Part shown: one piece after another, positions 2,918 through 30,097 of the stretch | Position numbering within the stretch: the first letter of the stretch is position 1 | Layout: each line of letters opens with the position of its first letter | NCBI RefSeq assembly: GCF_004300825.1 | Contig: NZ_CP036250.1 | Coordinates: forward strand, 1,116,001-1,180,000 | Source of the DNA: Egicoccus halophilus | Lineage (GTDB): Bacteria; Actinomycetota; Nitriliruptoria; Nitriliruptorales; Nitriliruptoraceae | Direction: 5' to 3' | Length of the DNA: 64,000 nucleotides | Notes under the pieces: generated by a model | Told to the model about the DNA's origin: nothing | What the model saw: only the letters and a program-made list of their open reading frames with translations | The model's database searches: none | Made by a program: the position numbers and the translations under genes

Positions 2918-3378
2918 GACTGCTTCGCCCTTCGTCGGTGCGTCTCAGGATGGCCACCGGAGTGCGGTGATGTTGCCAATCATCGACGTGTTCCGCGACG
3001 GCGACGAGTCCGTTGACAGGGCGATCGGTGTGGAGAGGTTGCCGAGTGTGTGCCAACGCTTCGAGCCGGCCGTCATGGCGTAGGCGGTACGGCCGCGAGT
3101 CACCGGATCAGACGCCACGCATGACCTCGCCCTCGAACTTCGCCGCGACCAGGGTTGTGCCGGGTGCCCGTGGGTGGAGGACCGCCCGTCAGCGCACGCA
3201 CGGCGGTATCGACCCGTTCAGCTGCGCGGCAGTTGCGTGACACCGCGGATGGCGAGGTGTCCGTCCCCAGGGTCTTCAGGTGGTGCTGAGGCTGAGGCGT
3301 CTCGCGCCGTGTGCTGCCCGCCGCGAGAGCGCAGGACACCACTGCGACGACGGTGCAGTGGCGTCCGGGCGTGGTGGA
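2918..3378. other. gene-poor stretch
   Basis: Open frames here are short, lack convincing start signals and look like chance frames of GC-rich DNA. I see no RNA, repeat or terminator. It separates the membrane protein gene from the 3' end of the broken transposase gene. Confidence 0.5.
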
Positions 3379-3669
3379 TCAGGCAGCGTCTTCGAGGGCG
3401 AACTCGGTGGGCGGGTCGAAACTTGCGAACAGTACGTCCGGGAGGTCGAGCCGGTTGCCGGTCTTGAGGTGCCACTTGCGGGCGAGGCGCACGTTGGTGA
3501 CGGCGGAGGACAAGCCGACGTGGAGGAGGCGGAGTCCAAGTGTCGGCGGACATGAGATTCTCCCCGTAGGCGGACAGCGGACCTCCCCGGTGGCGGACAC
3601 GAAAGCTCCCCGCGGACATCAGATCTCCCCGGTGTTGTCCGTTGTGCTCGTCACGGTTGTCGTGAACGA

Positions 3670-7807: not shown

Positions 7808-8088
7808 TTTGGGGCCGCATCCTTGGCAAAGTACGCCGTCGCGCGACGCAGGATCTCGACCTCTTGCTCGAGCACCCGGTTGCGACGCTTCAACGCGTTC
7901 AGCTCGTCCTGGGCAGCGGTGGTGGTGCCCTCGGTGATGCCGTCGTCGACGTCGGCCTGCTTGACCCAGCGCTGGACCGAGTGGGTCGAGATCCCGAAGT
8001 CTCGGGCGATCTCCTCCTGGGTCAGGCCGCTGGTGCGGGCGACCGCGACAACGTCACGCTTGAACTCGGGCGGGTAGTGCTTCGGCAT
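7804..8088 (-). CDS. IS3-family OrfA (HTH_Tnp_1)
   Basis: 94 residues. The N-terminal helix-turn-helix reads EFKRDVVAVARTSGLTQEEI and continues RDFGISTHSVQRWV. A C-terminal leucine zipper follows (LKRRNRVLEQEVEILRRA). It binds the terminal repeats and partners with OrfB. Start ATG 8088 lies about 60 bp inside the right terminal repeat. Confidence 0.92.
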   Translation of the reverse strand: MPKHYPPEFKRDVVAVARTSGLTQEEIARDFGISTHSVQRWVKQADVDDGITEGTTTAAQDELNALKRRNRVLEQEVEILRRATAYFAKDAAPK

Positions 8089-8841
8089 TGCGACATCCTT
8101 CCCGTGGACCGTCGGCCCACGTTAGATGTCAACCAAAGCCGGGGCAGTCCCCGTAGCCGGTATCGAGCCTCGGTGCGCGCACCATCCCGTGCATCGAGTA
8201 GCCGAAGAAGGCCTCGCTACCTCCGGCCTTCTTCGTCTTGCGCCCCCACGCGCCGTCGGGGTCGACCGACCTGCGCGCCTGGGCCTTGCGGACCTCCTCG
8301 ACGGTGATGTCGTCTTCGAGGTACTCGGGACGGTCCTTCACCGCCTTTGGCACCTTGCGTCCCTTGTTCCAGGCCCAAACGCCGGTCTCGTCGACGCAGT
8401 AGGCGCTGGAACCGTCCGGGCGGGTCGGCAGCGTCGCTCGGATGATGCGGTTGACGACGTCGAGCAGCGCATCCTTGGTGGCAGGCTCGATCGCTTGCCC
8501 ATCTGCACGGCAACGCTTCCGAAGGAGCCGGGTGAAGTTGTAGAGGTGGTCCTGCGTCAGGCAGACGCGAGCCACGCGGGGCCCGTCCTCGTGACGGTCG
8601 GCCACGGCGACGCCGAGTTCGACCATGGCGAACGGCGGGATCGCCGTCGTGAGTACGGCGTGGACGTCGTTGTAACGCATGCTGCCGTTGGTCTGGATGC
8701 TCAGCAGGCTGCCGATCAGGAACGTCCGCGGAGACAGATTTCGCCGCCCCTGCTTGGCCGGGTAGCAGAAGGCTTCGAACCGCTCGGCGGCCCCGTGGGC
8801 GTCTACGAGGTGGCAGGCGACGAGGTACTGGCCGATGGTGA

Positions 8842-9813
8842 TCATCGGTCGCTCTCCTGCTCGCGCAGGTAGCGGGCGATGTCCACGAGTGTCTGCACGG
8901 ACTTCAGCCCGGCGATGTCGAGAAGGTCGAGCAACGGAAGGTTGATCTGGATCAACTCCGCGAGGTAGGTCGCCCGCAGCCGGGTCTGCTCGACGTGCGG
9001 GCACGTGGAGGGGATGACCGCCTGAGCCACAACCCGGTTGACCACGTCCTTGCGGTCCTCGTTGCGTCCGATCACCAGATCGTTCGGGCGAAGTCCCGTG
9101 AGCCCGTCTCGCACGAGATCGACGTACCGATTCCGGACCGGAACGATGCGGGGGCGGCGACCCGACACGTGCACGTCGAGCTGGTTGGTGTCCACCTCGA
9201 CGACGTGGCAGCGACGCAGTGGCTTGATGTCGGTCGAGTCGAGCCCAGCGCCGAGACCGAGGCCGACGACGGCGCACATGCTCTGTCGCCGGACAGCCGT
9301 CTTCTGGTTGCGAGCGACCCGGACGATCGTGGCGGCCTCGGCGGGGAGATACGGCGGCTTCACCCGTGGCCGCGCGATGGGTTGGGCGCGTCTGATGCCG
9401 TCGTAGGCCGGGTTCGCCTGCTTGGCGATCTCGAGCAGGTCGCTTCGCAGGTCGGCGCGGGACGCGTCGCTGAGGTGTGCGCACCTCGGCGAGGCGATGA
9501 ACGTAACGATGCGTCCGACCGTGAGCAGCAGCTCCGGCTCGAGTGACAGGCCGTGTTCGTGGCTCCACGCCGCCAGCTGCGCGACGTACTGGCGCTGTTG
9601 GCGGAACTTCTCCGGGCCGGTGGTGGTGGTGCGCCGCATGATCTCGTTCATGGTCGGCTTGACCGACTGGTAGGTCTGCGGTGCGATGCTTGCCGGGGTG
9701 TATCCGTCGAGCAGCAGCTGCAGTTCGCGCGGGAGCTGCCGGCCCTGGTGGCGGCTGTTGATCTCCTGCGCCAGCCGTCGGACGGCAGCCTTGCTGACCT
9801 TCTTGTTTGTCAC
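8842..9813 (-). CDS. tyrosine-recombinase-like protein with altered catalytic motifs
   Basis: 323 residues from GTG 9813, chosen because an AGGAG site lies 6 nt upstream. The N-terminal helical half looks like a core-binding domain (EKFRQQRQYVAQLAAWSHEH). The C-terminal half follows the tyrosine recombinase layout: VVGLGLGAGLDSTDIKPLRR at box I, a beta sheet ending RIVPVRNRYVDLV, RLRATYLAEL at the box II position, and a final DIAGLKSVQTLVDIARYLRE. The box I arginine is not where expected (GAGLDSTD in place of GLRxxEL), and HxxR and the final tyrosine are uncertain. It sits between the 258-residue gene and the DDE transposase, overlapping the latter by 4 bp, so the three form one operon-like module. 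Confidence 0.6.
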   Translation of the reverse strand: MTNKKVSKAAVRRLAQEINSRHQGRQLPRELQLLLDGYTPASIAPQTYQSVKPTMNEIMRRTTTTGPEKFRQQRQYVAQLAAWSHEHGLSLEPELLLTVGRIVTFIASPRCAHLSDASRADLRSDLLEIAKQANPAYDGIRRAQPIARPRVKPPYLPAEAATIVRVARNQKTAVRRQSMCAVVGLGLGAGLDSTDIKPLRRCHVVEVDTNQLDVHVSGRRPRIVPVRNRYVDLVRDGLTGLRPNDLVIGRNEDRKDVVNRVVAQAVIPSTCPHVEQTRLRATYLAELIQINLPLLDLLDIAGLKSVQTLVDIARYLREQESDR

Positions 9814-9861
9814 GTCCAACTCCTGTGTTCGGTGGACGTGATGGACCGTGAGGACGTGCTT

Positions 9862-9935
9862 GGTGCGGGCATTCGCCCGCACCGAACGGGTCCTGGGTGT
9901 GCGAAAGATGCGCGCCCCCGCTGAGCGGGGGCGCG
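9862..9935 (-). terminator. two consecutive hairpins between module genes
   Basis: GGTGCGGGC-ATTC-GCCCGCACC at 9862-9883 and CGCGCCCCCGC-TGA-GCGGGGGCGCG at 9911-9935, both perfect. They lie between the end of the 258-residue gene (9952) and the recombinase-like gene start (9813) and could attenuate transcription. Neither has a T tract. Confidence 0.5.
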
Positions 9936-9951
9936 ACCTGGATGCGTAGGT

Positions 9952-10728
9952 TCAGAAGTGGCGCAGTGCAGCGCGGCTTGCGCGCCCGTCGGTGGGGAGG
10001 TGGTCACGCAGTCGGTCGATCTCGGCACCCGTCAGACCGATACTCACCGCCTCGAACAGCGAGGTCCGCCGCATGATCGCGAAGGTCCAGGCGCGTCGCA
10101 GCTCAGCCGCGTCCAGTGGCGGCAGCCGGTGCTCGCGCAGCCACCCCTTTGCTTCCTTCCACGCCGCCTGGTCAAGACCGTGCTCGAATGCCTCCGGCTC
10201 GATCACACCGCGCTCGTGCAGGGTGATCGCGCACTCGAGCGCAGCCGCGATGTGGTCGGGGGCGTGAGCCGCGGCGGCACGAATGGCCGAGAACTCGGGT
10301 GGGCCGTAGGGGACCGGGGTCCGGGCACCCGACTGGTCGGTCCGGTTCTTGCGCCGCGAGCCGTCTTCACCGTTCAAGGTGCGCTGGAGGCGGTGCAGTG
10401 CCGAGAGGTGATTGCGCAGGCTGTTGTCCGACCGGCCCTGGCGGCGCCAGGTCACGGCGAAGCGCTCGACCCATGAGCCGGTCAGCAGCTGCGCGAGGCT
10501 GGCGTCCGGCAGCTGCGGCGCAGCCCACGCCATCAGGGCCACGGCGGCGCCCAGCAGTGCGCGGGCATCGTCTTCGTCCGCCGGAGGTGCGGCGGCGACG
10601 AGGGCGATGACCTCACCGCGACAGGCGGTCCAGTGCGGTTCGGTGAGGCAGCGCGGCCGGTAGCTGGTCAGCAGCTGGCCGATAGCGGTCGGGAGCGGAT
10701 GGAGGGCGGGAGCGTGTGTGGTGTCCAT
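9952..10728 (-). CDS. unknown protein of a recombinase/transposase module
   Basis: 258 residues from ATG 10728 (MDTTHAPALHPLPTAIGQLL). It is mostly alpha-helical, with a segment WVERFAVTWRRQGRSDNSLR continuing NHLSALHRLQRTLNG that resembles the SAM-like N-terminal (arm/core-binding) domain of tyrosine recombinases. No catalytic C-terminal domain is seen. It is the first gene of a co-directional set (this gene, recombinase-like, DDE transposase). I infer a DNA-binding accessory factor for that set; the family is not recognised. Confidence 0.55.
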   Translation of the reverse strand: MDTTHAPALHPLPTAIGQLLTSYRPRCLTEPHWTACRGEVIALVAAAPPADEDDARALLGAAVALMAWAAPQLPDASLAQLLTGSWVERFAVTWRRQGRSDNSLRNHLSALHRLQRTLNGEDGSRRKNRTDQSGARTPVPYGPPEFSAIRAAAAHAPDHIAAALECAITLHERGVIEPEAFEHGLDQAAWKEAKGWLREHRLPPLDAAELRRAWTFAIMRRTSLFEAVSIGLTGAEIDRLRDHLPTDGRASRAALRHF

Positions 10729-10910
10729 ACCGATCACGGTCCGCCGAGCTCGAGAGCGTGCAACCGTCCCGGCCCGCGACCGTGGGTGTGAGCCGCCCAG
10801 TCGAGAATCGCGTCCACGGCTCCGGGAGAACGGCAGCCGGCTTGTTGTTGCCGGCTGCGGGAAGTCGGCACGTCGTCACGGTCTTGCGGTTCCACCGACA
10901 AGGAGACGAC

Positions 10911-11438
10911 ATGTTCAACGTCAACAACGCCCCCGTCAGCCACGCTGAGCTCGAACGCTTCACCCAGCTCGTCGCCAGCTCGGTCGACCGTTTCGGGTCC
11001 GACCCTGCCGAGTACGACATGGCCATCGCCGTGGACGACCGGGGCGACGCCCTGCTGCTGCCATGTAGCCCGCAGACGCGAGCGGCCATGACCGCCAAGC
11101 TGGACCAGCTGCTGGCAACCCCACGCAGGATGGCGGCGATGGTCTCGCTGATGGGATGGTCTCCCGATGCCTCGCCGACGGTTGCCGCATGGGTCGTCGT
11201 CGCGGTCGGACGCGGCAGCCTGCCGGCGCTCGTCTGCGTCCGTCGACTCGAGCAGGACGACCGGTGGACGCTGCTCAACATCAGCGACATGCCCTGGCTC
11301 ATCCTCTCCAGCGCAGCCGGCCTGAGGGCAGCCTTGTCCGGCCAGCCGCTGCGTCTCAAGGTCGCACGTACGAAGGCGCTGTTCCAGCGGCCCGACCAGG
11401 TGCCGAACCCGCCTGTCGACGAGCGCGGAGCACTCTGA
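10911..11438 (+). CDS. hypothetical cytoplasmic protein
   Basis: 175 residues from ATG 10911, chosen for the AAGGAGACGAC ribosome site just upstream. It begins MFNVNNAPVSHAELERFTQL. There is no signal peptide or membrane segment. The middle region is alternating hydrophobic (VAAWVVVAVGRGSLPALVCV), suggesting a beta sheet. I do not recognise the family. It reads divergently from the recombinase module and is followed by a perfect 30-bp palindrome. Codon use and GC match the island. Confidence 0.6.
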   Translation: MFNVNNAPVSHAELERFTQLVASSVDRFGSDPAEYDMAIAVDDRGDALLLPCSPQTRAAMTAKLDQLLATPRRMAAMVSLMGWSPDASPTVAAWVVVAVGRGSLPALVCVRRLEQDDRWTLLNISDMPWLILSSAAGLRAALSGQPLRLKVARTKALFQRPDQVPNPPVDERGAL

Positions 11439-11532
11439 CCAGCCGCAGCCCCGCTGCCGCGCCCACCTGACCGGACACGCGTGCGTGCACGGTCGCGCAG
11501 GGAAGCTTCGCCGAGCGGCTGTGAGGCAACGC

Positions 11533-11562
11533 CGCGCCACGGCCCGTACGGGCCGTGGCGCG
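11533..11562. repeat. perfect 30-bp palindrome (possible terminator)
   Basis: The arm CGCGCCACGGCCC, a GTAC centre and the exact complement. It lies 95 bp after the preceding gene's stop with no T tract, so it may be a terminator or a protein site. Confidence 0.6.
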
Positions 11563-11647
11563 ATTGCATCTCGACAGGAGCCACGGACGGTTCTCGACGC
11601 AGCTCACCAACGAGGCTGCAGACCGACAGCTACCGGAGACAAACGAC

Positions 11648-11959
11648 GTGATCTTCCTACTTTTCGACAACTACGACGACCCGTTCGACGACCCGTCCGA
11701 GTGGACCTGCTACCGGCTCCGAGTGCCCGGCCGATGGACCTCGCTCGAGTTGGCCCTACGGGCAGCGGCCGAGCGTGCGCTCCAGTTCGCCGGCGACTCC
11801 GCGGCCGGCGTCTACGCCGTCGACGTCTCGATGCACCGCGAATCGGAGGGGGGTATGACGGTCGCCAGCATCCACGTCTGGCACGACCATGCCGCTGGGG
11901 ACCCTTGGATCCCAGCGCTACGCACTCATCTCGATGTCGGCGAACCTCATCACGGCTGA
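11648..11959 (+). CDS. small hypothetical protein
   Basis: 103 residues from GTG 11648 (VIFLLFDNYDDPFDDPSEWT), chosen because a GGAG site lies about 9 nt upstream. An in-frame upstream start at 11555 is possible. The composition is acidic, with a helix LELALRAAAERALQFA and a beta-like SIHVWHDH. Not recognised. It lies between the palindrome and the restriction operon. Confidence 0.45.
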   Translation: MIFLLFDNYDDPFDDPSEWTCYRLRVPGRWTSLELALRAAAERALQFAGDSAAGVYAVDVSMHRESEGGMTVASIHVWHDHAAGDPWIPALRTHLDVGEPHHG

Positions 11960-12158
11960 CACGCAGCGTGCTCGTCCGGCGTAGCGAAGAGGCGATCCAC
12001 CTTGTCGCGGCCGGTTGCCCCTCGGCTGACAGTGGACACCCTGACCGCCCAAACACGGTTCCGGCCCACCGACGGCCAACGCCTACAGTGGCGTTGGCCG
12101 CAGGCTGGCCAGCTGGGACAGCGGGGGCGGGGTGCAGTCGGCAACGCGAGGAGTAACA

Positions 12159-14195
12159 GTGGCGGCGTACACGCATGGGGAAGCGGTCGGGCTGATCTGG
12201 GCAATCGCAGACCTGCTGCGAGGGACCTACAAGGCTCACGACTACGGCGACGTCATCCTCCCGCTCGTGGTCCTACGTCGTCTCGACCAGGCGTTGCTCG
12301 ACACCAAGCAGGCGGTGCTCGAGCGCGACACGAAACTGGCCGAGCAAGGCATCGAGAACCGCGAACCGGTCCTCCGGTCCGTCTCAGGCCGGTCGTTCTA
12401 CAACACCCACCAGCTGACCTTCGACCGGCTCATCGACGACGAGGACAACGTCCCGGCCAACTTGCGTGCCTACATCGAGGCGTTCTCGCCCAACGCCCGT
12501 GACGTGATCGAGAAGTTCGGGTTCGACACGCAGATCGACAAGCTGCACGGCGCCAACCTGCTCTACCCGATCCTCGCCCGATTCGTTGACATCGACCTGC
12601 ACCCCAACCGGGTTTCCAACCTCGACATGGGCTACCTGTTCGAGGAGCTCATCCGCCGGTTCGCTGAGCAGTCCAACGAGACCGCAGGTGAGCACTTCAC
12701 ACCCCGTGAGGTCATCGCGCTGTGCGTCGAACTTCTCGCGGCAGCCGACTGGGACCGGCTCGCCCAGCCTGGCGCAATCGTCACCATGCTCGACAGCTGC
12801 GCCGGCACCGGTGGTATGGCGTCGGTGTTCGAGGAGCACCTGCGGTCGCGCAACAGCCAGGCACGGCTGATCCCACACCTGCAGGAGATCAACGACGAGT
12901 CGTACGCCATCTGCAAGGCCGACCTGCTCATCAAGGGGCAGGATGCCGACAACGTCGCGTTCGGTAACAGCCTCACCGAAGACGCCTTCCCGACGCTCGC
13001 AGCCGACTACGCCATCACCAACCCGCCGTTCGGGGTCGACTGGAAGGGCTACGCCGCCCCGCTCGAGCGCGAACACGCCGAGCTCGGTCACGATGGCCGG
13101 TTCGGACCGGGCCTGCCCGCCAAGGGCGACGGACAGCTGCTGTTCCTGCTGCACCTGCTGTCCAAGCTCAAGCCCTACGACCACGCCACCGGCACCGGCG
13201 GCGGACGGCTCGCGATCATCATGAACGGCTCGCCGCTGTTCTCCGGCGCTCCCGGCGGTGGCGAATCGGAGATCCGCCGCTACCTGATCGAGAACGACCT
13301 GCTCGAGGCAATCGTCGCGCTGCCCGACCAGCTGTTCTACAACACCGGCATCTCGACCTACATCTGGATCATCACCAACCGCAAGGCACCCGAACGCACC
13401 GGGAACGTCCAGCTCATCGACGCCCGCCAGCAGTTCCGCAAGATGCGCAAGAGCCTCGGCGCCAAGCGCAACGAGCTCGCCGATGAGCACATCGAACGCA
13501 TCGTCGCCCTCTACCACGGCCTCGACGCCGATGGGGAGCAAGCCAAGCTCATCCCCAATCACCGGTTCGGGTTCCGCCGCGTCACCATCGAACGACCGCT
13601 ACGGGCCCGCTACGAGGGGGGTGCTGCAGCCGTCGAACGGCTCCGCACCTCACCCGACTGGAACGCCGCACAGGTCCGCAAGTCCGACGCCGACCGCGCC
13701 GAGGACATCCTGGCCGGCATCGAACAGACCGTCGCCGACCTGCCGGCGAACGGGCTCACCGCGGCCGACGCCATCACCCGCGTCAAGAAGGCCGACGGCT
13801 TCACGGCACTGCTGAAAAAGGCCAAGGACGCCATTGCCGCCGCGCTCACCGTCCCCGACCCGGACGCTGAGCCAGTCGTCGACGCCAAGGGCCGTCCGCA
13901 GCCCGACCCAGACCTGCGCGGGCAGGAAGCCGTCCCGCTGCCAGACACCTACCAGCCCGACGACGACACTATCGACGTGCTCACCGACGGCGTCGATGAC
14001 CACCTCAAGGCCGAGGTCCTCCCACACGCCCCCGACGCCTGGGTCGACCACACCAAGACCAAGCTCGGCTACGAGATCCCCTTCACCCGCATCTTTTACC
14101 GCTACCAGCCGCCCCGCCCCCTCGCCGAGATCGACGCCGATATCAAGCAAGTCGAAGCCGAAATTTTTCAGCTTCTCGCCGAGGTCACCGAATGA
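12159..14195 (+). CDS. hsdM: type I restriction-modification system methyltransferase subunit
   Basis: 678 residues from GTG 12159, preceded by GAGGAG at a good spacing. The N-terminal HsdM helical domain (ADLLRGTYKAHDYGDVILPL) is followed by an N6-adenine methyltransferase domain. That domain has the SAM-binding DSCAGTGG motif near residue 211 and the catalytic NPPFG motif at about 288-292. The C-terminal ~200 residues are a helical extension with many charged residues. It forms the M2S methylase with HsdS and the R2M2S nuclease with HsdR, protecting host DNA. The stop overlaps the hsdS start by ATGA. Confidence 0.95.
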   Translation: MAAYTHGEAVGLIWAIADLLRGTYKAHDYGDVILPLVVLRRLDQALLDTKQAVLERDTKLAEQGIENREPVLRSVSGRSFYNTHQLTFDRLIDDEDNVPANLRAYIEAFSPNARDVIEKFGFDTQIDKLHGANLLYPILARFVDIDLHPNRVSNLDMGYLFEELIRRFAEQSNETAGEHFTPREVIALCVELLAAADWDRLAQPGAIVTMLDSCAGTGGMASVFEEHLRSRNSQARLIPHLQEINDESYAICKADLLIKGQDADNVAFGNSLTEDAFPTLAADYAITNPPFGVDWKGYAAPLEREHAELGHDGRFGPGLPAKGDGQLLFLLHLLSKLKPYDHATGTGGGRLAIIMNGSPLFSGAPGGGESEIRRYLIENDLLEAIVALPDQLFYNTGISTYIWIITNRKAPERTGNVQLIDARQQFRKMRKSLGAKRNELADEHIERIVALYHGLDADGEQAKLIPNHRFGFRRVTIERPLRARYEGGAAAVERLRTSPDWNAAQVRKSDADRAEDILAGIEQTVADLPANGLTAADAITRVKKADGFTALLKKAKDAIAAALTVPDPDAEPVVDAKGRPQPDPDLRGQEAVPLPDTYQPDDDTIDVLTDGVDDHLKAEVLPHAPDAWVDHTKTKLGYEIPFTRIFYRYQPPRPLAEIDADIKQVEAEIFQLLAEVTE

Positions 14196-15400
14196 CCGCC
14201 ACTCCGACGGTCCCGCTGGGACATCTTGCACTTGTGCGACCGAGCAGCGTCGACAAGGTTGCCAACGAGAGCGAGACACCGGTGCGCCTCTGCAACTACA
14301 CCGACGTTTACTACGGCGACCGCATCACGAACGAGCTGTCGTTCATGCAAGGCACAGCCACAGCTGGCGAGATCAGACGCTTTGAACTACAGCGTGACGA
14401 CGTCCTCATCACCAAAGACTCCGAGACCGCAGACGACATCGCAATCGCCGCCTGGGTCGCCGAGGACCTCCCGGGAACGGTGCTCGGGTACCACACAAGC
14501 CTTCTCCGTCCACGCGCAGGAATCGACGGTCGGTTCCTCTACTGGGCCCTCCAGGCGCATCCACTGCGCGACTACTTCGAACAGCACGCCCGCGGCGTGA
14601 CGCGGCACGCCCTACGACAGCAGGATGTGACCCAAGCGCCCGTCCCGCGCCCTTCGCTTGCCGTGCAGCGGCGCATCGCGGATTACCTCGACACCGAGAC
14701 CGCCAGCATCGATCGGCTGCTCGAGAGGAACGCAGACCTGCAACAACTGGTCTTGGAACGCCTTGAGGCGTTCATCGAGTACCGGATATGGGGATCCAGC
14801 CCCGAGTTGGTGCCCCTGCAGTACAGAACTACACGGCTCACGGTGGGAGTCGTAGTCCGTCCCGCAGAGTTGATGGCGCCGGCAGGGCCGCCGTTTCTGC
14901 GAGGCGTCAACATCGAACGCAACCACGTTCTGCCGAGCAATCTGGTCCACATCGACGCGGACGCCAACAAGGCGAACTCCAAGAGCATGCTTGAGCCCGG
15001 CGACGTATTGATGGTTCGTACGGGAGATGCTGGCGTTTCCGCTGTCGTCCCTGAGTGGGCGATCGGAGGCAACAGCTCAGGTTTGCTGCTCATCCGTCCG
15101 GATCGTCGCCTCATTGATCCCGTCTTCTTGGCTTACACGTTGAACTCCGGCCTTGCAAGGGAACACATCCGCTTGCGTACTCAGGGGGCCATTCAGCAGT
15201 CGTTCCCGACCTCCGAGTTGGGGGGGATCCCGGTCCCGAACATCCCGCTTGAGGCTCAGGGAGCTGTTGTCGAAGAGGTCTCGTCCCTGGCGGCTCGAGT
15301 CCGGGACGGTGTTGATCGACTCCGGCGTCAGGCCGAACTGCTTTGGGAGCGTCGCCGCGCCCTGATCACGGCGGCGGTGACGGGCGAGTTGGAGGTGTGA
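14192..15400 (+). CDS. hsdS: type I restriction-modification specificity subunit
   Basis: 402 residues with two target-recognition domains, roughly 1-165 and 200-355. Each is followed by a conserved helix: IADYLDTETASIDRLLERN in the centre, and a matching C-terminal helix near RVRDGVDRLRRQAELL. The first recognition domain ends with VTRHALRQQDVTQAPVPRPS, a characteristic HsdS boundary. The two halves determine a bipartite DNA target. It is coupled to hsdM by a 4-bp overlap and is followed after one base by the GIY-YIG/RAMA gene. Confidence 0.92.
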   Translation: MTATPTVPLGHLALVRPSSVDKVANESETPVRLCNYTDVYYGDRITNELSFMQGTATAGEIRRFELQRDDVLITKDSETADDIAIAAWVAEDLPGTVLGYHTSLLRPRAGIDGRFLYWALQAHPLRDYFEQHARGVTRHALRQQDVTQAPVPRPSLAVQRRIADYLDTETASIDRLLERNADLQQLVLERLEAFIEYRIWGSSPELVPLQYRTTRLTVGVVVRPAELMAPAGPPFLRGVNIERNHVLPSNLVHIDADANKANSKSMLEPGDVLMVRTGDAGVSAVVPEWAIGGNSSGLLLIRPDRRLIDPVFLAYTLNSGLAREHIRLRTQGAIQQSFPTSELGGIPVPNIPLEAQGAVVEEVSSLAARVRDGVDRLRRQAELLWERRRALITAAVTGELEV

Positions 15401-15401
15401 G

Positions 15402-16241
15402 GTGGCGGTGACGGGGGATGCGTTGCCGGTGACGGCGCTGCTTGCGTCGGAGCCCGGGGTGCCGGTGGTGGTGTTCGATTCGAACGCGGCGCTGCGGATG
15501 GCCGTGGTGGACCGGCAGTCGGTGCATGGGGTGGACGAGTCGTGGGACGCCCCGGGGGTGTACCTGCTGCTCGATCCCGTGGCGCTGGACGGGGCGTTCG
15601 GTGTGTACGTGGGGAAGGCGCCGGCGGGCCTACGAACGCGGCTGAAGCAGCACCTGAAGGGCAAGGACCACTGGGCGCGGGCGCTGATGGTGGTGCGGGA
15701 CACGACGCACGGGTGGCACTCGGCGCAGGTCGGCTGGCTTGAGGGCCGGCTGTACGACCTGCTTGATGGCGCGTCGCTCGCCAAGCTGTCGAACGGGAAC
15801 CGGCCGCAGGACGAGACGCTGCCGGCCTACGACCGGATCGCGTTGGAGGCGGCGGTGACGCCGATCTCGGCGGTGATGCGGTTGCTGGGTTGTTCGCCCG
15901 ATGCCTTCGACGAGGACGCGCCGTCGGAGTCACCGGTGCGGCCCGCGCCACGTCAGTACAACGTGACGATTGCGGACCTCGTCGCCGCCGGTGACCTCGT
16001 CGTAGAGGAGCGTGTGAGCTCGACGCAGGCATCAGCCCCGGCGACGGCGGTTGTCGGCAGCGACGGCGGCCTGACCATCGACGGGCAGCGGTTCGCAACA
16101 CCGTCGGCGGCCGGGTCGCACGTCCGGGCCGGCAAAGCTACCAATGGGTGGGCGTTCTGGGCGGTCGAACGGGACGGGACGACAGTGCCGCTTGCCACCG
16201 TCAGGGCGCGCTACCTGCGGCGGGTCACGGAGACAGGCTGA
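15402..16241 (+). CDS. GIY-YIG-like nuclease domain fused to RAMA (DUF4357) domain
   Basis: 279 residues from GTG 15402, one base after the hsdS stop. The middle part reads GVYLLLD...VYVGKAPAGLRTRLKQHL, the GIY-YIG pattern in divergent form, followed by WHSAQVGWLEGRLYDLL with a glutamate at the position expected for the metal ligand. The C-terminus (about 190-275) matches the RAMA/DUF4357 pattern: TIADLVAAGDLV, DGQRFATPSAAGSHVRAG and NGWAFWAV. RAMA modules are known in restriction-associated proteins and are thought to recognise DNA. Its position between hsdS and hsdR ties it to the restriction system; the exact role is inference. Confidence 0.75.
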   Translation: MAVTGDALPVTALLASEPGVPVVVFDSNAALRMAVVDRQSVHGVDESWDAPGVYLLLDPVALDGAFGVYVGKAPAGLRTRLKQHLKGKDHWARALMVVRDTTHGWHSAQVGWLEGRLYDLLDGASLAKLSNGNRPQDETLPAYDRIALEAAVTPISAVMRLLGCSPDAFDEDAPSESPVRPAPRQYNVTIADLVAAGDLVVEERVSSTQASAPATAVVGSDGGLTIDGQRFATPSAAGSHVRAGKATNGWAFWAVERDGTTVPLATVRARYLRRVTETG

Positions 16242-16867
16242 TGGCAATCAACATGAGTGCTATTTCGTCGGGGCCGAGCCCTGACGAACTGCGCCAGTCG
16301 GTGGCATGGGCCGGTGCATATCTGGACATGATCGGGCGTGAAGGGGTGCGACGCTTCCTTGCCGGCGACCAGCACAGCCCGCCGCACACGGACGTGCCGC
16401 CGCCGGCGGCCCTGCTCGCGACGGCGCATCGGTCGGGTGGCCCGGCGGATGCGCTGGCCATCGCCGTCGTGGCGCTTCGGGTTACGACCGGGATGGCCTG
16501 GCGCTGGATCGGCGCCCGCTACCTGATGGTCGACTGCCCGTTGGCACCGGACCTCGAGGACCTGCGCGGCGATGGCAAGAAGGTCACGGGCAAGCCGTAC
16601 GCCGAGGCTGCACGCGATGCAATGACGCAGCTCGTGAGATCAGCCAAGGCGGTCGGGAACGACCTCGCGCCCGGGAACGCACCAGGTCTCGGCTTCGACG
16701 ACATCGCGCGACGGTGGGACGTTTCCGCCGACTTGATCGGTGCGACCGTCGGTCCCGGAGCCGCCCGCTGGCTGCCACCCTCGGCGACGCAGACCCTGAC
16801 TCACGGCAGTGGACGCTACTTCCGAGTCGTGGCCGAACATGCTGCCTGGTCTCGGGCGGAGGTCTGA
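16241..16867 (+). CDS. unknown gene within the type I restriction operon
   Basis: 208 residues from ATG 16241, which shares one base with the preceding stop (TGATG). It is alpha-helix-rich, beginning MAINMSAISSGPSPDELRQS. It contains a Trp-rich segment GMAWRWIGARYLMVD and a C-terminal RRWDVSADLIGATVGPGA that could be a winged-helix or HTH. No catalytic motif is recognised. The hsdR start lies 4 bp after its stop. The tight packing argues that it is translated with the restriction subunits. Confidence 0.7.
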   Translation: MAINMSAISSGPSPDELRQSVAWAGAYLDMIGREGVRRFLAGDQHSPPHTDVPPPAALLATAHRSGGPADALAIAVVALRVTTGMAWRWIGARYLMVDCPLAPDLEDLRGDGKKVTGKPYAEAARDAMTQLVRSAKAVGNDLAPGNAPGLGFDDIARRWDVSADLIGATVGPGAARWLPPSATQTLTHGSGRYFRVVAEHAAWSRAEV

Positions 16868-16871
16868 AGGC

Positions 16872-19800
16872 ATGCCGATGCACGACGAGGGACAGTTCCA
16901 GCGCGACATCGCTGTCGAGATGGTCGCGGGCTCAGGTTGGCAGCAGCGTCCAGCGGCCGAAGTCGACCGGGCGACGCGGCTGCTGGTCGACGACCTGGTC
17001 GGCTATCTCGAGGCGACGCAGCCGGCGGCGGTCGAGAAGTTCGCGTCGGTCGCCGGCGCTGGCTGGCAGCAGCAGTTGGCGGACATCGTCGCCAAGGACC
17101 TCGACAAGGAACCTGGTCGGGCGCTCGGGCTGCTGCGTGGCGGGAAGAAGGTCCGGGGCGGGGCGCGGTTCTCGTTCTGTCAGTTCAAGCCCGCCAACGA
17201 TCTCAACGCCGACCTGGTCGCCGCCTACGAAGCGAACCGGCTGACGGTCGTGTTGGAGGCACCGGTCCGCAAGCCCGACGGCACCTGGGGCGAGGTCGAC
17301 CTGGCGCTGTACGTCAACGGGATCCCGGTCGCGGACGCGGAGTTGAAGAACTCGCTGACGGGCCAGTTGGTGAAGCAGGCGGTGCGCCAGTACCGCCACG
17401 ACCGTGACCCGTCCGACACGCTGCTGGGGTTCCGGTCGGTGGTGCACTTTGCGGTCGACACCGACGCGGTGATGATGGCCACCCGCCTGACGGGGCCGAC
17501 GACGAGGTTTCTGCCGTTCAACCGCGGCTCGTCGCCCGATGGGGCCGGCGGCGCGGGGAACTACGACCCGGGCGACGGGTCGCACAAGACGTCCTATCTG
17601 TGGCGGCAGGTGTGGCAGCGGGACAACTGGCTCGATCTGCTGCACCGGTTCGTGCACGTCACCCCGGCCGATCCGGCCGACCCGGGCTCGACGACACGGA
17701 TGATCTTCCCGCGGTTTCATCAGTGGGACGCGGTCCGCAAGCTCGAAGCGCACGCCCGCACCCACGGAGCTGGCCAGTCCTACCTCGTCGTCCATTCGGC
17801 CGGATCGGGCAAGTCGAACACCATCGGCTGGCTCGCTCACCGGCTGACCGGGTTGACCGACCCGGCCGGGACGGACCGGGTCTTCGACAAGGTCATCGTG
17901 ATCACCGACCGGCGGGTGCTCGACGCGCAACTCTCGGCCACGGTGGCGCAGTTCGAGCACGCGTCGGCTGCTGGGAAGGTCGTGTCGGTCGACTCGTCGC
18001 GTGAGCTGGCGGATGCGCTGTCGCGTCCGTCGACCCGGATCGTGGTTTCCACGTTGCAGAAGTTTCCGTTCGCTGCGCAGCTCGAAGCGATCCGCGACGC
18101 CGGCGGGGGCCGGTACGCGGTGCTGATCGACGAGGCGCACTCGTCGCAGTCGGGGGAGTCGGCCAAGCAGCTCAAAGAGGTCTTGCGGCCGGCGGACCTC
18201 GGCGCGGGTGAGGAGGTCGCGCTCGCGGCGGAGGAGTGGGCGGTCTACGACGACGCGGACCCGGTCGCTGAGGCGGTGGCGGCGTCGGCCAAGGCGCGGG
18301 GGCGGCCGGACAACGTGTCGATGTTCGCGTTCACGGCCACTCCGAAGGGTAAGACGCTCGAGCTGTTCGGAACCCGACATCCGGACGGCAAGCTGCGACC
18401 GTTCCACCTGTACTCGATGCGGCAGGCCATCGAGGAGGGATTCATCCTCGACACGTTGCGCAACTACACCACCTACGCGACGTTCTGGAAGGTCACCACC
18501 GAGTCGGGCGCCGAGGTCGAGAAGTCCAAGGCCTCCTCGGCGGTCACCAAGTACGCGGTTCTGCACCCGGCGATGATTGCCGAGAAGGCCCAGGTCATCG
18601 TCGAGCACTACCGGCAGCACGTCCGTCACCGCATCGGCGGGCAAGCCAAGGCGATGGTGGTCACACGCAGCCGGCTCGCTGCGGTCCGCTACAAGCAAGC
18701 CCTCGACCGCTACATCGCCGAGCAGGGCTACGACCTTGGCGTCGTGGTTGCCTTCTCCGGCAAGGTCCAAGACCCCGACGCGCCGGAGGTCGAGCACACC
18801 GAAGCGTCCATGAACGGCTTCGGTGAGACTCGGACCGTCCGCCGCTTCGACGGCGATGACATGCACCTGATGGTCGTGGCCGAGAAGTACCAGACTGGGT
18901 TCGACCAGCCGAAGCTGCACACGATGTACGTCGACAAGAAGCTCGACGGCGTCGCCGCGGTGCAGACGCTCGGCCGGCTCAACCGCTCCCGCGATGGCAA
19001 AGACGACACCTTCGTCCTCGACTTCGTCAACGACCGCGACGACATCGCCGCCGCGTTCGAGCCGTTCTACGACGGCCCCGTCGGCGTCCCCACCGACGAC
19101 CAGACGCTGTATGAGGTGTGGCAGCGGCTCGAGGACCACCACGTGCTCGACGAGGCCGACCTCGACACGTTCGCGCAAGCCTGGTTCACCTCCACCCCTG
19201 ACGACCGCACCGCCCACCCGCTGCTGCACGCCGCGCTCGCCCCAGCCGAAGGCCGGTTCGAGGCACTCGACGAGGAACAGCAGGAGACCTTCCGGACCGC
19301 GCTGGCGCAGTTCACCCGCATGTACGCCTTCCTGGCTCAGGTCCTGCCTTACGCCGACGAGGAGTTCGAGAAGGCCTACCCCTACGCCAAAATGCTGCTC
19401 CGGCGCATCGGCGCCCGCGCCGGCACTGCGCTGGACCTGTCCGACGAGCTCGAGCTCACCCACCTCAAGCTCGCCGAGCGCGGCACCGAGGACATCCACC
19501 TCGAGGGCGGCGAACACGACCAGACTGCCTTCACCGGCACCGGCCAAGGCAGCCTCACCGACGACGAGGTGGCCCTGCTGTCCGAGGTCGTCGACGCGAT
19601 CAACGACCGGTTCGGCGCTGAGGTCACCGACGACGACAAGATCTTCTACCAAGCTGTCGGCGAACGGATGTCGGCCAACCCGGAGCTGCAGCAGCAGGCC
19701 GCCGTCAACGACGAGCAGACCTTCCAGTACGCGTTCAACGACGCGTTCATGGAAGCCGTCATCGACGCCATGGAGCACAACACCGACCTCGGCAAACGCC

Positions 19801-19922
19801 TTCTCGACGACCCCGCCTACGCCAACATCGTCAAGACCTGGATGCTGCGCTACGTCCACCGCCGTGCCGCCGAACGTCACGACACCCCCGAACTCGACCT
19901 TGAGACTCCTCATGGACGTTGA
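16872..19922 (+). CDS. hsdR: type I restriction-modification system endonuclease/translocase subunit
   Basis: 1016 residues from ATG 16872 with a GAAGG site. The N-terminal PD-(D/E)XK nuclease region has EVDLALYVNGIPVADAELKN, then the SF2 motor: Walker A AGSGKS near residue 310, DEAH box LIDEAHSSQSGE near 418 and motif III FAFTATP. The second RecA lobe includes YQTGFDQPKLHTMYVDKKL and QTLGRLNRS. A C-terminal helical region binds the methylase. It cleaves unmodified DNA after ATP-driven translocation. The last 11 bp overlap the next gene. Confidence 0.96.
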   Translation: MPMHDEGQFQRDIAVEMVAGSGWQQRPAAEVDRATRLLVDDLVGYLEATQPAAVEKFASVAGAGWQQQLADIVAKDLDKEPGRALGLLRGGKKVRGGARFSFCQFKPANDLNADLVAAYEANRLTVVLEAPVRKPDGTWGEVDLALYVNGIPVADAELKNSLTGQLVKQAVRQYRHDRDPSDTLLGFRSVVHFAVDTDAVMMATRLTGPTTRFLPFNRGSSPDGAGGAGNYDPGDGSHKTSYLWRQVWQRDNWLDLLHRFVHVTPADPADPGSTTRMIFPRFHQWDAVRKLEAHARTHGAGQSYLVVHSAGSGKSNTIGWLAHRLTGLTDPAGTDRVFDKVIVITDRRVLDAQLSATVAQFEHASAAGKVVSVDSSRELADALSRPSTRIVVSTLQKFPFAAQLEAIRDAGGGRYAVLIDEAHSSQSGESAKQLKEVLRPADLGAGEEVALAAEEWAVYDDADPVAEAVAASAKARGRPDNVSMFAFTATPKGKTLELFGTRHPDGKLRPFHLYSMRQAIEEGFILDTLRNYTTYATFWKVTTESGAEVEKSKASSAVTKYAVLHPAMIAEKAQVIVEHYRQHVRHRIGGQAKAMVVTRSRLAAVRYKQALDRYIAEQGYDLGVVVAFSGKVQDPDAPEVEHTEASMNGFGETRTVRRFDGDDMHLMVVAEKYQTGFDQPKLHTMYVDKKLDGVAAVQTLGRLNRSRDGKDDTFVLDFVNDRDDIAAAFEPFYDGPVGVPTDDQTLYEVWQRLEDHHVLDEADLDTFAQAWFTSTPDDRTAHPLLHAALAPAEGRFEALDEEQQETFRTALAQFTRMYAFLAQVLPYADEEFEKAYPYAKMLLRRIGARAGTALDLSDELELTHLKLAERGTEDIHLEGGEHDQTAFTGTGQGSLTDDEVALLSEVVDAINDRFGAEVTDDDKIFYQAVGERMSANPELQQQAAVNDEQTFQYAFNDAFMEAVIDAMEHNTDLGKRLLDDPAYANIVKTWMLRYVHRRAAERHDTPELDLETPHGR

Positions 19923-20613
19923 CGACACCACCCGCGCTGCTCTCGCCGACGCGTTCGAGTCGTTCTGCCCGGCTCCCGACGGGTTGCAGATCCCCGACGG
20001 CTACCGCGACTCCGGGCTCGCCGTCGTCGACGCGGTCTTCTCGATCCAAGCCCGCTACGAAGGCGTCACCCGCGTTGTGTCCAGCTACGCCGAGTGGGCC
20101 GACCTGACAGAAATCGCGCCTCTTCCCGTCGAGCGAGACGCACCTGACCATCACGACGTGTCGATGTTGGCGAACCGTCTCTCCGCGGTGAGCGGCGAAG
20201 CGGCCGCGAACGACGTGTTCGACAACCGCTCCGGGACTCACCGTCTCAAGGCGGAACTCGTGATCGACGCGGCGCAGGCACTCGTCGCCGCAGGCGTACG
20301 GCGACGCCAGGATGTCGCGCTGACCCCGAACGACGAAACCTACGAGACCCAGAAGCTCGCATGGACCAGTGTCGATGGCCTCGGCCCCGTGACCTTCGAG
20401 TACTTCCGGATGCTGTGCGGCGCCGAGTCCAGCAAGCCAGACGTCATGGTCATCGCCTGGCTCCACGAGGTTCTCGGACAAGACTTCGGCTGGCGTGACG
20501 CGCTTGACCTGATGAGCGCGCTCCGCGACGAGCTCACACGCCGCTGGGGGGTCGACGTGTCCCTGCGCGCCGTCGATCACACCGTCTGGCGCCACCAGTC
20601 CGGACGCGCGTGA
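19912..20613 (+). CDS. helix-hairpin-helix-like protein of the restriction operon
   Basis: 233 residues from ATG 19912, overlapping hsdR by 11 bp. The first half is a helical domain (DDTTRAALADAFESF). A signature GLGPVTFEYFRMLCG followed by KPDVMVIAWL resembles the HhH element of the endonuclease III/DNA-glycosylase superfamily, where GxGxxT contacts the DNA backbone. No catalytic Lys/Asp pair is clear. I infer DNA binding rather than a glycosylase. It is followed by a gene starting at its own stop codon. Confidence 0.65.
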   Translation: MDVDDTTRAALADAFESFCPAPDGLQIPDGYRDSGLAVVDAVFSIQARYEGVTRVVSSYAEWADLTEIAPLPVERDAPDHHDVSMLANRLSAVSGEAAANDVFDNRSGTHRLKAELVIDAAQALVAAGVRRRQDVALTPNDETYETQKLAWTSVDGLGPVTFEYFRMLCGAESSKPDVMVIAWLHEVLGQDFGWRDALDLMSALRDELTRRWGVDVSLRAVDHTVWRHQSGRA

Positions 20614-26449: not shown

Positions 26450-26597
26450 CTGCCGCAGGAGCGATCGTTCCGCATGTCGGGACCGGCCGTTCGTGCACGG
26501 TCTCCGGTTGTGGCCTGTCCCGGGGACCGCGAGGATGGGTCGCGAACGTCCGGCGTCGCAGGGGCGCCAGTCCGCCACCTTCCGGGGAGAGTGCGTC

Positions 26598-27062
26598 GTG
26601 GTCAACGCCGCCGTCCAACCGCACCGAGACCGTGAGGGGAGCCTGGTCCACGTCATCGAGACGTTGCTCGACAAGGGCCTGGTCCTCAACGCCGACATCA
26701 TGGTGTCGGTGGCCGGCGTCGAGTTGCTGGGGGTGAAGATCCGTGCGGCCCTCGCCTCGTTCGACACGGCCGCCCGCTACGGGCTCGAGTTCCCCTCCGG
26801 GACCAACACCTCGACGCTGGCCTGGCAGGAGACGCTCATCGCCAAGGAAGCGTGCCCCGACTGCGGCAAGCGGGTCCCCACCGAGGAGCTGCTGCGCGAG
26901 TCGTGCCCGTGGTGTGGCTGGCAGAGCGCCCGCGCCCTGGCCCAGGGACAGGCGTCGACGCCCGAACTCGACGAGGGCGGGGACCGCGACGCCGAGCGTA
27001 CGACGTCGGACGACCGTGGCGCACCGCGCGAATCGGCCGCAGGCGCCGAGCAGGATGGATGA
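26598..27062 (+). CDS. GvpA/GvpJ-family protein with C-terminal zinc ribbon
   Basis: 154 residues from GTG 26598, after GGGGAGA. Residues about 10-65 are a gas-vesicle GvpA/J domain (VIETLLDKGLVLNADIMVSV continuing AGVELLGVKIRAALASFDT). Then comes ACPDCGKRVPTEELLRESCP with CGW: four cysteines, CX2C-X13-CX2C, a zinc-ribbon pattern. An acidic, disordered tail follows. GvpA and GvpJ form or cap the protein shell of gas vesicles. The zinc ribbon is not part of the canonical shell protein, so a minor or regulatory member is more likely. It overlaps the next gene by 8 bp. Confidence 0.8.
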   Translation: MVNAAVQPHRDREGSLVHVIETLLDKGLVLNADIMVSVAGVELLGVKIRAALASFDTAARYGLEFPSGTNTSTLAWQETLIAKEACPDCGKRVPTEELLRESCPWCGWQSARALAQGQASTPELDEGGDRDAERTTSDDRGAPRESAAGAEQDG

Positions 27063-28020
27063 GCCCGCTGCCCTCGAGCCGACCCGCGACGTCCGGGCCA
27101 CGCTGCCCGAGCTGATCGAGGTCCTGCTCAACCGCGGTGTCTACCTCGACCTCGACCTGATCATCGCGGTCGCCGACATCCCCCTCATCGGCGTCAACCT
27201 GCGCGCCACGCTGGCCGGTATGCAGACCATGCTCGACCACGGGATGCTGCGCGACTGGGACGCCGCCACCCGCGAGTGGGTGCGCCGCTCGAGCATCCAG
27301 GACGTGCCGTTCGAGGACGGCGAGCAGCTGGCCGTGCACATGACCGGCTCCTACCTGCAGCGCGACTTCGCCGAGATCTGGCGACCCGGCAACCTCTACC
27401 TGACCGACCGGCGCCTGTTCGCCTTCCGGCGCGAACCCCGCGAGCTGCTGTGGCAGGCACCGCTCGAGGCGATCCGGGACGTGCGGCTGCAGATGCAGCG
27501 CACGGTCGGCGGAGAGCCGCGCCCCCGACTCCGGCTCGAGCTCGCCGACGACGACCATGCGCTGCTCACGGCCGCCGATCCGTTGCGGCTGTACACCGGG
27601 CTGCGGGTCGCCCTCGAGCGTCATGGCGTGGCGCTGCCCGAACAACCCATCGAGATCGCCGAGCAGGACGAACGTCCGCTGCTCGAGGGGCACGTCTGGT
27701 ACCAGGAACCGCGCGTAGGGGCGCCACTGTGGCGCGGCGGGACCGGGCGGATCAGTCGTGACGCCGTGCTCAGTTGGATCTCGCCGCACGACGCCCGCGC
27801 CGCCGTCGTGGTGCGTCGGGAGCAGATCCGCGGGGTCGAGCTGGTGAGCGACCGGACCCCGACCGGGTCCGGACGGGTGCTCGTCGTCCACACCGACGGC
27901 GGCAGCATCCGGCTGGCACCCTCGGACCCACCCCGCTGGCAACAGGCGGTGCGTGCCCTGGCGGCACAGGACGTCCCGGCGGTCGACGCAGGAGAAGGCG
28001 ATGGCGCTCACAGTCGATGA
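27055..28020 (+). CDS. GvpJ-like domain fused to two PH/GRAM-like domains
   Basis: 321 residues from ATG 27055. The N-terminal GvpA/J domain reads LPELIEVLLNRGVYLDLDLI continuing IAVADIPLIGVNLRATLAG (about residues 15-60). Two beta-rich modules follow. The first (about 90-200) has GNLYLTDRRLFAFRREPREL, the classic PH/GRAM G-x-LYLTDxRL start. The second (about 210-310) has GGTGRISRDAVLSWI and RIRGVELVSDR-like strands ending VLVVHTDGGSIRL. PH/GRAM domains usually bind lipids or proteins, so this protein may tether a vesicle-like assembly. I know of no standard Gvp with this layout. Confidence 0.75.
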   Translation: MDEPAALEPTRDVRATLPELIEVLLNRGVYLDLDLIIAVADIPLIGVNLRATLAGMQTMLDHGMLRDWDAATREWVRRSSIQDVPFEDGEQLAVHMTGSYLQRDFAEIWRPGNLYLTDRRLFAFRREPRELLWQAPLEAIRDVRLQMQRTVGGEPRPRLRLELADDDHALLTAADPLRLYTGLRVALERHGVALPEQPIEIAEQDERPLLEGHVWYQEPRVGAPLWRGGTGRISRDAVLSWISPHDARAAVVVRREQIRGVELVSDRTPTGSGRVLVVHTDGGSIRLAPSDPPRWQQAVRALAAQDVPAVDAGEGDGAHSR

Positions 28021-28321
28021 ACAGAGCCTCAAGCACGGGGTGCTCTCGCTGGTGGTCACGCTGGTCGAGATCATCGAGGAGGCGCTCGAGTCGCAGGCGC
28101 TGCGGCGCATCGAGCACGGCGACCTGACCGAGGAGGAGCAGGAACGCCTCGGCAACGCCCTGTTGGAGCTCGAGGAGGCCCTCGAGGAGCTCAAGGCGGA
28201 TCACGGCATCACCACCTCGGTGGCCGACCTGCGTCGGGGCCTCGACGACGTCGTGGACGAGGTCATCGACAAGCTGATCAATCCGCAGCGTTGGGCCGAG
28301 GAGAGCGAGCTGCATTCGTGA
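28001..28321 (+). CDS. gvpK: gas vesicle protein GvpK
   Basis: 106 residues from ATG 28001 with GGAGAAGG just upstream, overlapping the previous gene by 20 bp. The sequence LKHGVLSLVVTLVEIIEEAL continuing ESQALRRIEHGDLTEEEQER is the GvpK core. The rest is acidic coiled coil. GvpK is an accessory assembly protein of gas vesicles, of unknown biochemical role. Its stop overlaps the gvpF/L start (GTGA). Confidence 0.88.
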   Translation: MALTVDEQSLKHGVLSLVVTLVEIIEEALESQALRRIEHGDLTEEEQERLGNALLELEEALEELKADHGITTSVADLRRGLDDVVDEVIDKLINPQRWAEESELHS

Positions 28322-29154
28322 GCGCAGACCTGTACGTCTACGCGATCGTGCCCGGTCCGCTGCCCGACGTCGACGACGTCCCCGGCCGCGGGATCGACGG
28401 GGTCGAGGTGGTCGCCGTCGAGGGCCCGCACGGGTTGGTCGCGCTGGTCGCCGAGAACGACACCGGTCCCTACCAGGGGGCCGACGACGACGTGCGGCGC
28501 TGGATCGTCGAGCACAGCGAAGTGATCGAACGGGCCTGGGACGCGATCGGCACGGCCCTGCCGGTCACCTTCAACGTGCTCGTCCGTGGCGACCAGCAAC
28601 CCGCCGTCGAGCGGCTGCTGGCGTGGCTCGACGAGCAGGGTCCGGAGCTGCGCAGCCGGCTCGAGGAGTTGCGCGACCGGGTCGAGCTGCGCCTGGAGCT
28701 CAGTCTCGAGCGGGCCACGGTCGCCGCGGACGCGCCGGAGGTCGTGCGTCTGCAGCAGGAGATGGAAGGCAAGTCGGCCGGCGTGCGGCGACTGCTCGAC
28801 AAGCGGCTCGACCGACTCCGGCGCCAGGTCGCCGACGAGATCGCCGACGCCTGGTACCCGGAGGTCCGACGGCGGATCGTCGCCCTGGTCGAGGACCTCG
28901 ACGAGGCCCGGCGTACGACCGCACGTGACGGCGAGGTGGCGGTGCTCGCGGCCTCGCTGCTCACGCCGCGGGACGGCGTGGACGTGCTCGGACGGGAGCT
29001 GGCCCGCCTGCAGGAGGAACAGCCTGCGGCGCAGGTCCGCTTCCTGGGGCCGTGGCCGCCGTACTCGTTCGTGGATCTCGCGGGGCCCGGAGCCGACGAC
29101 GCCCCCGACGAGGCCCAGGCGCCGGAGACACGCCGCGACTCACCGTCGGTGTAG
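28318..29154 (+). CDS. gas vesicle protein GvpF/GvpL
   Basis: 278 residues from GTG 28318. It begins SADLYVYAIVPGPLPDVDDV, as GvpF/L proteins do. The ferredoxin-like first domain is followed by VERAWDAIGTALPVTFNVLV-type sequence and a long charged helix with DAWYPEVRRRIV. The end FLGPWPPYSFVDL is the family's C-terminal signature. GvpF/L proteins chaperone GvpA during shell assembly. It is the last gene of the four-gene operon and converges on a small membrane protein gene. Confidence 0.88.
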   Translation: MSADLYVYAIVPGPLPDVDDVPGRGIDGVEVVAVEGPHGLVALVAENDTGPYQGADDDVRRWIVEHSEVIERAWDAIGTALPVTFNVLVRGDQQPAVERLLAWLDEQGPELRSRLEELRDRVELRLELSLERATVAADAPEVVRLQQEMEGKSAGVRRLLDKRLDRLRRQVADEIADAWYPEVRRRIVALVEDLDEARRTTARDGEVAVLAASLLTPRDGVDVLGRELARLQEEQPAAQVRFLGPWPPYSFVDLAGPGADDAPDEAQAPETRRDSPSV

Positions 29155-29379: not shown

Positions 29380-29740
29380 GCCCGCTCCTCGGCCGCCCGA
29401 ACCTCGACCGCACCGTACCGATTCGCCGCGGGAACGCCTCGGCCGCCGAATGCCAGCAGGCGTGACGTCCGGTGGGGCGTGGCCCGGCGGCCATGGCCGC
29501 CCGTCCGGAGTGGCGGGGTATCAACGACCGCGGTCGTAGGTCAGCATGGGGGTGCCGAACGGGGGCTCCCGCTTGCTGTCCGACCGCGCTCCGGCGGACA
29601 CGGCCCCCCGGCCACCGCCCGTACGCGGGCCAGTGGCCGGAGGGTGGCGGGGATGCGATGCCCTCACCGTCCGGTGAGTGACGCTTCCCCCAGCACCCCG
29701 GCCGCTCCCGGCTGGGACCCCTGACCAAGGAGAACACCAG
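29380..29740. other. intergenic region between divergent genes
   Basis: No supported gene. It must hold the promoters of the small membrane protein (minus) and the lipoprotein (plus); none is clear by eye. AAGGAG at 29727-29732 is the lipoprotein ribosome site. Confidence 0.5.
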
Positions 29741-30097
29741 ATGCTGCTCCGCAAGCGCTTCCTGTCGATCGCTGCCGTCGCTGGTCTCGCACTGGCTGGC
29801 GCTGCCTGTGACGATGGCGGTGACACCGGTACCGACACCACGGACACCACCACCGACACCGGCACCGACGACACCATGACCGACGACACCATGACCGACG
29901 ATGGTGCGACGGACGACACCATGACCGACGATGGTGCGACGGACGACACCATGACCGACGATGGTGCGACGGACGACACCATGACCGACGATGGTGCGAC
30001 GGACGACACCATGACCGACGATGGTGCGACGGACGACACCCTGGAAGACGACACCATGGGTGACGACACCATGGACGACACCGAGACCGAGGGCTGA
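29741..30097 (+). CDS. acidic repeat-rich lipoprotein
   Basis: 118 residues from ATG 29741, with AAGGAG 9 nt upstream. The signal sequence MLLRKRFLSIAAVAGLALAG ends in AAC, a lipobox with a non-standard -3 residue. The mature part is Asp/Thr/Gly only, built on five exact copies of the decapeptide TMTDDGATDD. Such low-complexity acidic tails are seen in halophile or cell-wall-exposed lipoproteins and could bind cations or act as a spacer. A strong hairpin terminator follows. Confidence 0.8.
   Translation: MLLRKRFLSIAAVAGLALAGAACDDGGDTGTDTTDTTTDTGTDDTMTDDTMTDDGATDDTMTDDGATDDTMTDDGATDDTMTDDGATDDTMTDDGATDDTLEDDTMGDDTMDDTETEG
29888..30037 (+). repeat. five exact 30-bp tandem repeats inside the lipoprotein gene
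   Basis: Units at 29888, 29918, 29948, 29978 and 30008, each beginning ACCATGACCGACGATGGTGC. In-frame length change would keep the reading frame. The exact identity of units suggests recent expansion. Confidence 0.95.

Follow-up and report, generated by a model that had tools for sequence, protein, structure and literature searches.

Gas vesicles are buoyancy organelles, and how the tasks of starting and enlarging a vesicle are divided among their proteins is still being worked out. Homologues of GvpJ, GvpM and GvpS are found in purified bicones, whereas the cylindrical wall lacks them, and GvpK has been implicated in initiation (PMC10903477). GvpJ and GvpM are essential, the tail of GvpJ contacts GvpG, GvpH and GvpL (PMC8716928), and GvpL binds both GvpJ and GvpM (PMC8716928, PMC9501494). 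GvpN is reported to be conserved in characterized gvp clusters (PMC9501494).

In the window, a 64,000-nucleotide stretch of the Egicoccus halophilus genome, four overlapping, co-directional ORFs occupy positions 26598-29154 of the + strand, and both the ORFs and their Pfam matches agree with a preliminary description of them as genes for a GvpA/J-domain protein, a GvpJ-like protein, GvpK and GvpF/L. The first gene, gvpJ-ZnR (26598..27062, 154 aa), begins with a GTG codon, upstream of which GGGGAG was noted by inspection at 26584-26589. Its product matches the Pfam Gas_vesicle model (2.2e-13), with the GvpA domain at residues 15-53 (26640..26756), and carries a C-terminal zinc-ribbon motif, CPDC-x13-CPWCGW (26853..26921). 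The second gene, gvpM-PH-PH (27055..28020, 321 aa), matches the same model (2.7e-8; GvpA domain at residues 16-54, 27100..27216) and continues into two PH domains, at residues 92-189 (27328..27621) and 210-304 (27682..27966). The NCBIfam models closest to these two genes are those of haloarchaeal GvpJ (halo_gas_GvpJ, 4e-28) and GvpM (halo_gas_GvpM, 5.6e-23), and neither match reaches the cut-off of its model. Downstream lie gvpK (28001..28321, 106 aa; Pfam GvpK, 2.9e-22) and gvpL, of the GvpL/GvpF family (28318..29154, 278 aa; Pfam GvpL_GvpF, 1.7e-42; NCBIfam gas_vesic_GvpL, 1.6e-32, under the cut-off).

Both fusions noted in the preliminary description proved to be real. The motif C-x2-C-x13-C-x2-C occurs with identical spacing in 79/79 related J proteins, one of the two search patterns that found them having included part of the cysteine motif, and the four tail cysteines of GvpJ-ZnR are kept in an alignment (A3) with proteins of Streptomyces, Natrinema and Natronococcus. 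None of the Pfam zinc-ribbon models scored over its cut-off against the window GvpJ. The cysteine motif was also looked for in the canonical GvpJ proteins of the class and of Streptomyces and is absent from them, and Halobacterium GvpJ is devoid of cysteine (PMC8716928). The zinc ribbon is thus supported as an invariant sequence motif, with zinc binding as its putative property.

For the GvpM-type protein, Pfam applied to the window sequence alone returned a sub-threshold GRAM match, and among its relatives, L102, from another phylum, exceeded the cut-offs for Vps36-type PH and GRAM, and L096 that for GRAM. A single-sequence AlphaFold model was poor (pLDDT 47.7) and was superseded by an AlphaFold2 model based on an alignment (A4) of 40 proteins, the window protein and 39 relatives, with a mean pLDDT of 83.8 over GvpM-PH-PH. 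Each modeled PH domain consists of 7 strands and a C-terminal helix, mostly at pLDDT >90; both domains are delimited in this model, and the first is further supported by the Vps36, GRAM and PH matches of homologues and by the Foldseek comparison with the PDB. The structures matched by the PH pair in that comparison are tandem-PH or PH proteins, among them centaurin, FARP, BBS5, Rtt106 and archaeal CheF. BBS5, Rtt106 and archaeal CheF resemble the window PH pair in fold but are not gas-vesicle proteins, and no function shared with the window protein is implied. In several deep lineages, the M-PH protein carries a zinc ribbon at its end too. As modeled, the GvpM-type protein contains two PH folds, each with a putative ligand.

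The host genome is a single contig of 3.98 Mb, and a whole-genome profile search revealed a second gvp locus at ~3.643-3.645 Mb. It encodes a plain GvpA, the shell protein and the third GvpA-domain gene of the genome (3.6443-3.6447 Mb, 7.6e-14), together with GvpG (7.1e-20), GvpO (4.5e-27) and GvpF, the second GvpF/L protein, so that each of the two loci has one GvpF/L gene. The sole GvpK of the genome and both further GvpA paralogues, J and M/S, are those of the window. Thus, the statement in the preliminary description that plain GvpA, GvpG and GvpN are missing holds for the neighborhood and, for GvpA and GvpG, does not hold for the genome. The situation that the preliminary description had named as refuting its reading, canonical genes elsewhere with the window genes as minor components, is in essence what the genome shows, except that the other locus amounts to half a cluster rather than a second full set. 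Some Streptomyces carry the window-type genes on top of full canonical clusters that already include J, S and K, as would be expected if these genes formed a specialized tip or tether on vesicles able to nucleate without them; in E. halophilus, which has no other J, M/S or K, they would not be optional if vesicles form, and we regard such a role as extremely improbable.

Near the gvpA gene of the 3.64 Mb locus, we also observed a small adjoining protein that weakly matches DUF7553 and a pair of proteins with the motif GLPxGPKxTDWSRVAKLGAGAAA in common, one of them with an SRPBCC (Polyketide_cyc) domain (L011:8782-9138, 5666-6430, 9203-10831). These proteins have counterparts around the cluster of the congener.

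That congener (G042) has an equivalent second locus with matching flanking genes, in which a J-L-S-L-K block lies between GvpO and the next gene (Z). At the 3.64 Mb locus of E. halophilus, GvpO is followed directly by Z and there is no J-L-S-L-K block, the likeliest history being that the block was lost in this genome. We consider it probable that the two loci constitute one two-locus gas-vesicle set, in which an acquired J-M-K-L module for nucleation and bicone formation replaces the lost J-L-S-L-K; the two halves would then cooperate and vesicles would form. Several observations count against this reading, namely, the distance of ~2.5 Mb between the halves, the divergence of the window GvpK from its family model (78.7 bits vs 104-122 in class relatives) and the absence of GvpN, which, as the preliminary description had it for the neighborhood, is missing genome-wide (top match of 39.1 bits vs a cut-off of 266.8). 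In the actinobacterial clusters compared, GvpN was not convincingly seen either, as judged with a single-sequence model. The lost J-L-S-L-K block and a congener that is 98% complete and has no GvpK match would also fit a pair of remnants, with the native locus decaying, the module a passenger and no gas vesicles made. Every gene at both loci is, however, open and complete, and the complementary split recurs in other genera, so that decay of this kind appears unlikely.

To place the two-locus set among its relatives, we turned to wider searches. Scanning genomes for exact short patterns from just the M-PH protein returned no relatives, whereas a scan with the ZnR-J alignment succeeded and yielded at least 538 related stretches, of which the 80 best were annotated with HMMs built for this analysis. 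An earlier candidate interpretation of the PH-M protein as an orphan, based on a single-sequence search that found the PH region in 1/66 genomes of the class, was overturned by the wider search. The ZnR-J/PH-M module is present in Actinomycetota, Desulfobacteraceae, Atribacterota and Methanophagales, and haloarchaea have the zinc ribbon only. The literature search found no paper linking gas vesicles with a zinc ribbon or a GRAM domain, and a single one that mentions both gas vesicles and pleckstrin, each one time, all bioRxiv preprints and most subscription papers being outside its scope; the module is widespread and undescribed in the sense of not found in the literature searched, and its early characterization as a little-described type holds.

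Among the best 80 of the at least 538 stretches, A-F-G-O-J(ZnR)-M(PH)-K-L form one cluster in Brevibacterium, Nesterenkonia, Sinomonas, Kocuria, Georgenia, Isoptericola, Brachybacterium and others, and in most Streptomyces, in Micromonospora and in a Gemmatimonadota bin, the stretch examined contains J(ZnR)-M(PH)-K-L and no A-F-G-O. An exception is S. albidoflavus (L048), which has A-F-G-O ~3 kb from the module, on the opposite strand. A split like that of the window's genome is seen in Streptomyces megasporus, S. radiopugnans and Micromonospora pattaloongensis, each with exactly one extra GvpA-domain gene, in the separate O/A/F/G half. The gene order J(ZnR)-M(PH)-K-L is kept in relatives, a point on which the preliminary description is borne out; many Actinomycetota have both halves in a single cluster.

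To assess co-occurrence with GvpG, 396 genomes were drawn evenly from across the phylum; the PH-M protein is encoded in 9 of them. GvpG exceeded its cut-off in 6/9 of these vs 16/387 of the others (Fisher p ~1e-6, a guide only, the genomes being related), and the 3 PH-M genomes without GvpG are represented by short contigs broken inside the cluster. Furthermore, GvpG was found in 28/28 searched genomes of module-bearing loci; these came from 30 loci (L065 and L074 were left out) picked mostly for having an annotated module with no directly adjoining A-F-G-O, and they include that of S. albidoflavus, the exception with A-F-G-O nearby. Among the genomes searched, no module without GvpG was found, save on contigs cut within the cluster.

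These data bear directly on the suggestion in the preliminary description that the operon specifies a separate, shell-like, non-buoyancy assembly, that is, J-ZnR and M-PH acting as a shell or sensor without GvpA. Within the stretch examined, the same four genes stand alone on a Streptomyces plasmid and on many Streptomyces chromosomes, and on haloarchaeal plasmids J-ZnR is accompanied by a wHTH-like protein, K, L and M, with no A nearby. Yet E. halophilus itself has plain GvpA, F, G and O, full contiguous clusters occur in many genera, and all 28 searched genomes contain GvpG, which makes a stand-alone assembly very unlikely. From the A-F-G-O locus in the genome, the contiguous clusters in relatives and the GvpG co-occurrence, we therefore take the window operon to be one half, J-M-K-L, of a gas-vesicle set. 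The further notion of a link to the adjoining SLH wall protein was not borne out, since neither of the two congeners compared has the gene for the latter at this place.

A number of other features were observed in these relatives. Several deep lineages that, in a 7 kb view, appeared to be without plain GvpA were dropped from that category once a whole-genome search revealed additional genes with a GvpA domain, either on that contig or elsewhere. Deep-lineage gvp clusters contain a second PH-repeat protein with a wHTH-like middle and an Hsp20-like end (L110:11918-13198, L100:4725-5963), and the wHTH-like middle resembles the 'hypothetical protein' located between J-ZnR and K on haloarchaeal plasmids (L036:9443-10015, L037:9677-10000). 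Some Streptomyces (L126, L127, L128 and L129) have a lone gvpA, with F, G and O not detected in the stretch read.

The two halves of the set differ in ancestry. The window GvpK belongs to the ZnR-J/PH-M clade, with an SH-aLRT of 98 in a large tree and support of 100/100 in a smaller, careful tree, and constraining it to group with the GvpK of its own class was rejected (p-AU 6.2e-5). Its partner GvpF from the 3.64 Mb locus groups with the GvpF of the class (SH-aLRT 97). Likewise, the split halves of Streptomyces have a GvpF that falls with the canonical GvpF of that genus (98), apart from the contiguous clusters, and GvpF of the Micromonospora half (L122) groups with the contiguous clusters. 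The operon abuts a block, starting at 29140, that is conserved in both congeners compared, and the sequence immediately upstream of the operon is not shared at that place with the two congeners. GC content at the operon is similar to that of the backbone, so there is no compositional hint of a recent transfer. Taken together, the foreign GvpK, the native GvpF, the occurrence of the PH-M protein in 1/66 class genomes by single-sequence search and the congener boundary suggest that the module was acquired as a unit, most likely horizontally from other Actinomycetota, and is used with the native A-F-G-O. The phylogenies make the module appear to behave like an exchangeable half-cluster.

Elsewhere in the window, GC content is lower in a stretch after a tmRNA gene (1690-2048). 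This stretch contains a transposase-like ORF (3670-5217) and type I restriction-modification-like ORFs, named from reading the sequences (HsdM-like, 12132-14195; HsdS-like, 14192-15400; HsdR-like, 16809-19922); the 1690-20000 region looks like a genomic island next to the tmRNA gene. A small lipoprotein-like ORF with tandem TDDTMTDDGA-type repeats (29678-30097) separates gvpL from a gene for inositol monophosphatase, and similar sequence is present in both congeners compared.

If the two loci do form one gas-vesicle set, GvpJ-ZnR and GvpM-PH-PH would be low-copy GvpA paralogues that assemble with GvpK and GvpL into a nucleation/bicone complex, and GvpF would deliver GvpA, which would polymerize on this complex. 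The zinc ribbon may take the place of the GvpJ tail that binds accessory proteins, and the PH pair may serve as a docking module at the nascent tip. More tentatively, and as something possible rather than probable, the module may represent a widespread, undescribed class of nucleation modules in which a tandem-PH adaptor on the tip protein GvpM lets nascent vesicles dock to a membrane or signaling partner, with J-M-K-L swapped between lineages as a unit. The apparent exchange of J-M-K-L as a unit while A-F-G-O is kept suggests which proteins must match each other. Furthermore, the zinc-ribbon and tandem-PH tails offer conserved, testable functions for minor paralogues and possible handles for vesicle engineering.

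Among the known systems, the p-vac cluster of Halobacterium salinarum (gvpFGHIJKLM/ACNO) also includes J, K, L and M, and the haloarchaeal models are those nearest to the window GvpJ and GvpM. Its GvpM, however, is an 84-aa protein without PH domains and its GvpJ has no cysteine, and the E. halophilus set is distributed over two loci with no GvpN found. The canonical cluster of the Streptomyces/Nitriliruptoria type (O/A/F/G ... J-L-S-K) has the A-F-G-O half in common with the window's genome and differs in the other half, where J lacks the cysteine tail, S lacks a PH domain and K falls in a separate clade. The contiguous clusters of the Brevibacterium/Nesterenkonia/Sinomonas type, annotated in this analysis and with no published study of them found, match the window operon in all four genes and in their order; there, the two halves are adjacent, whereas in the genome of E. 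halophilus they are far apart and of different ancestry.
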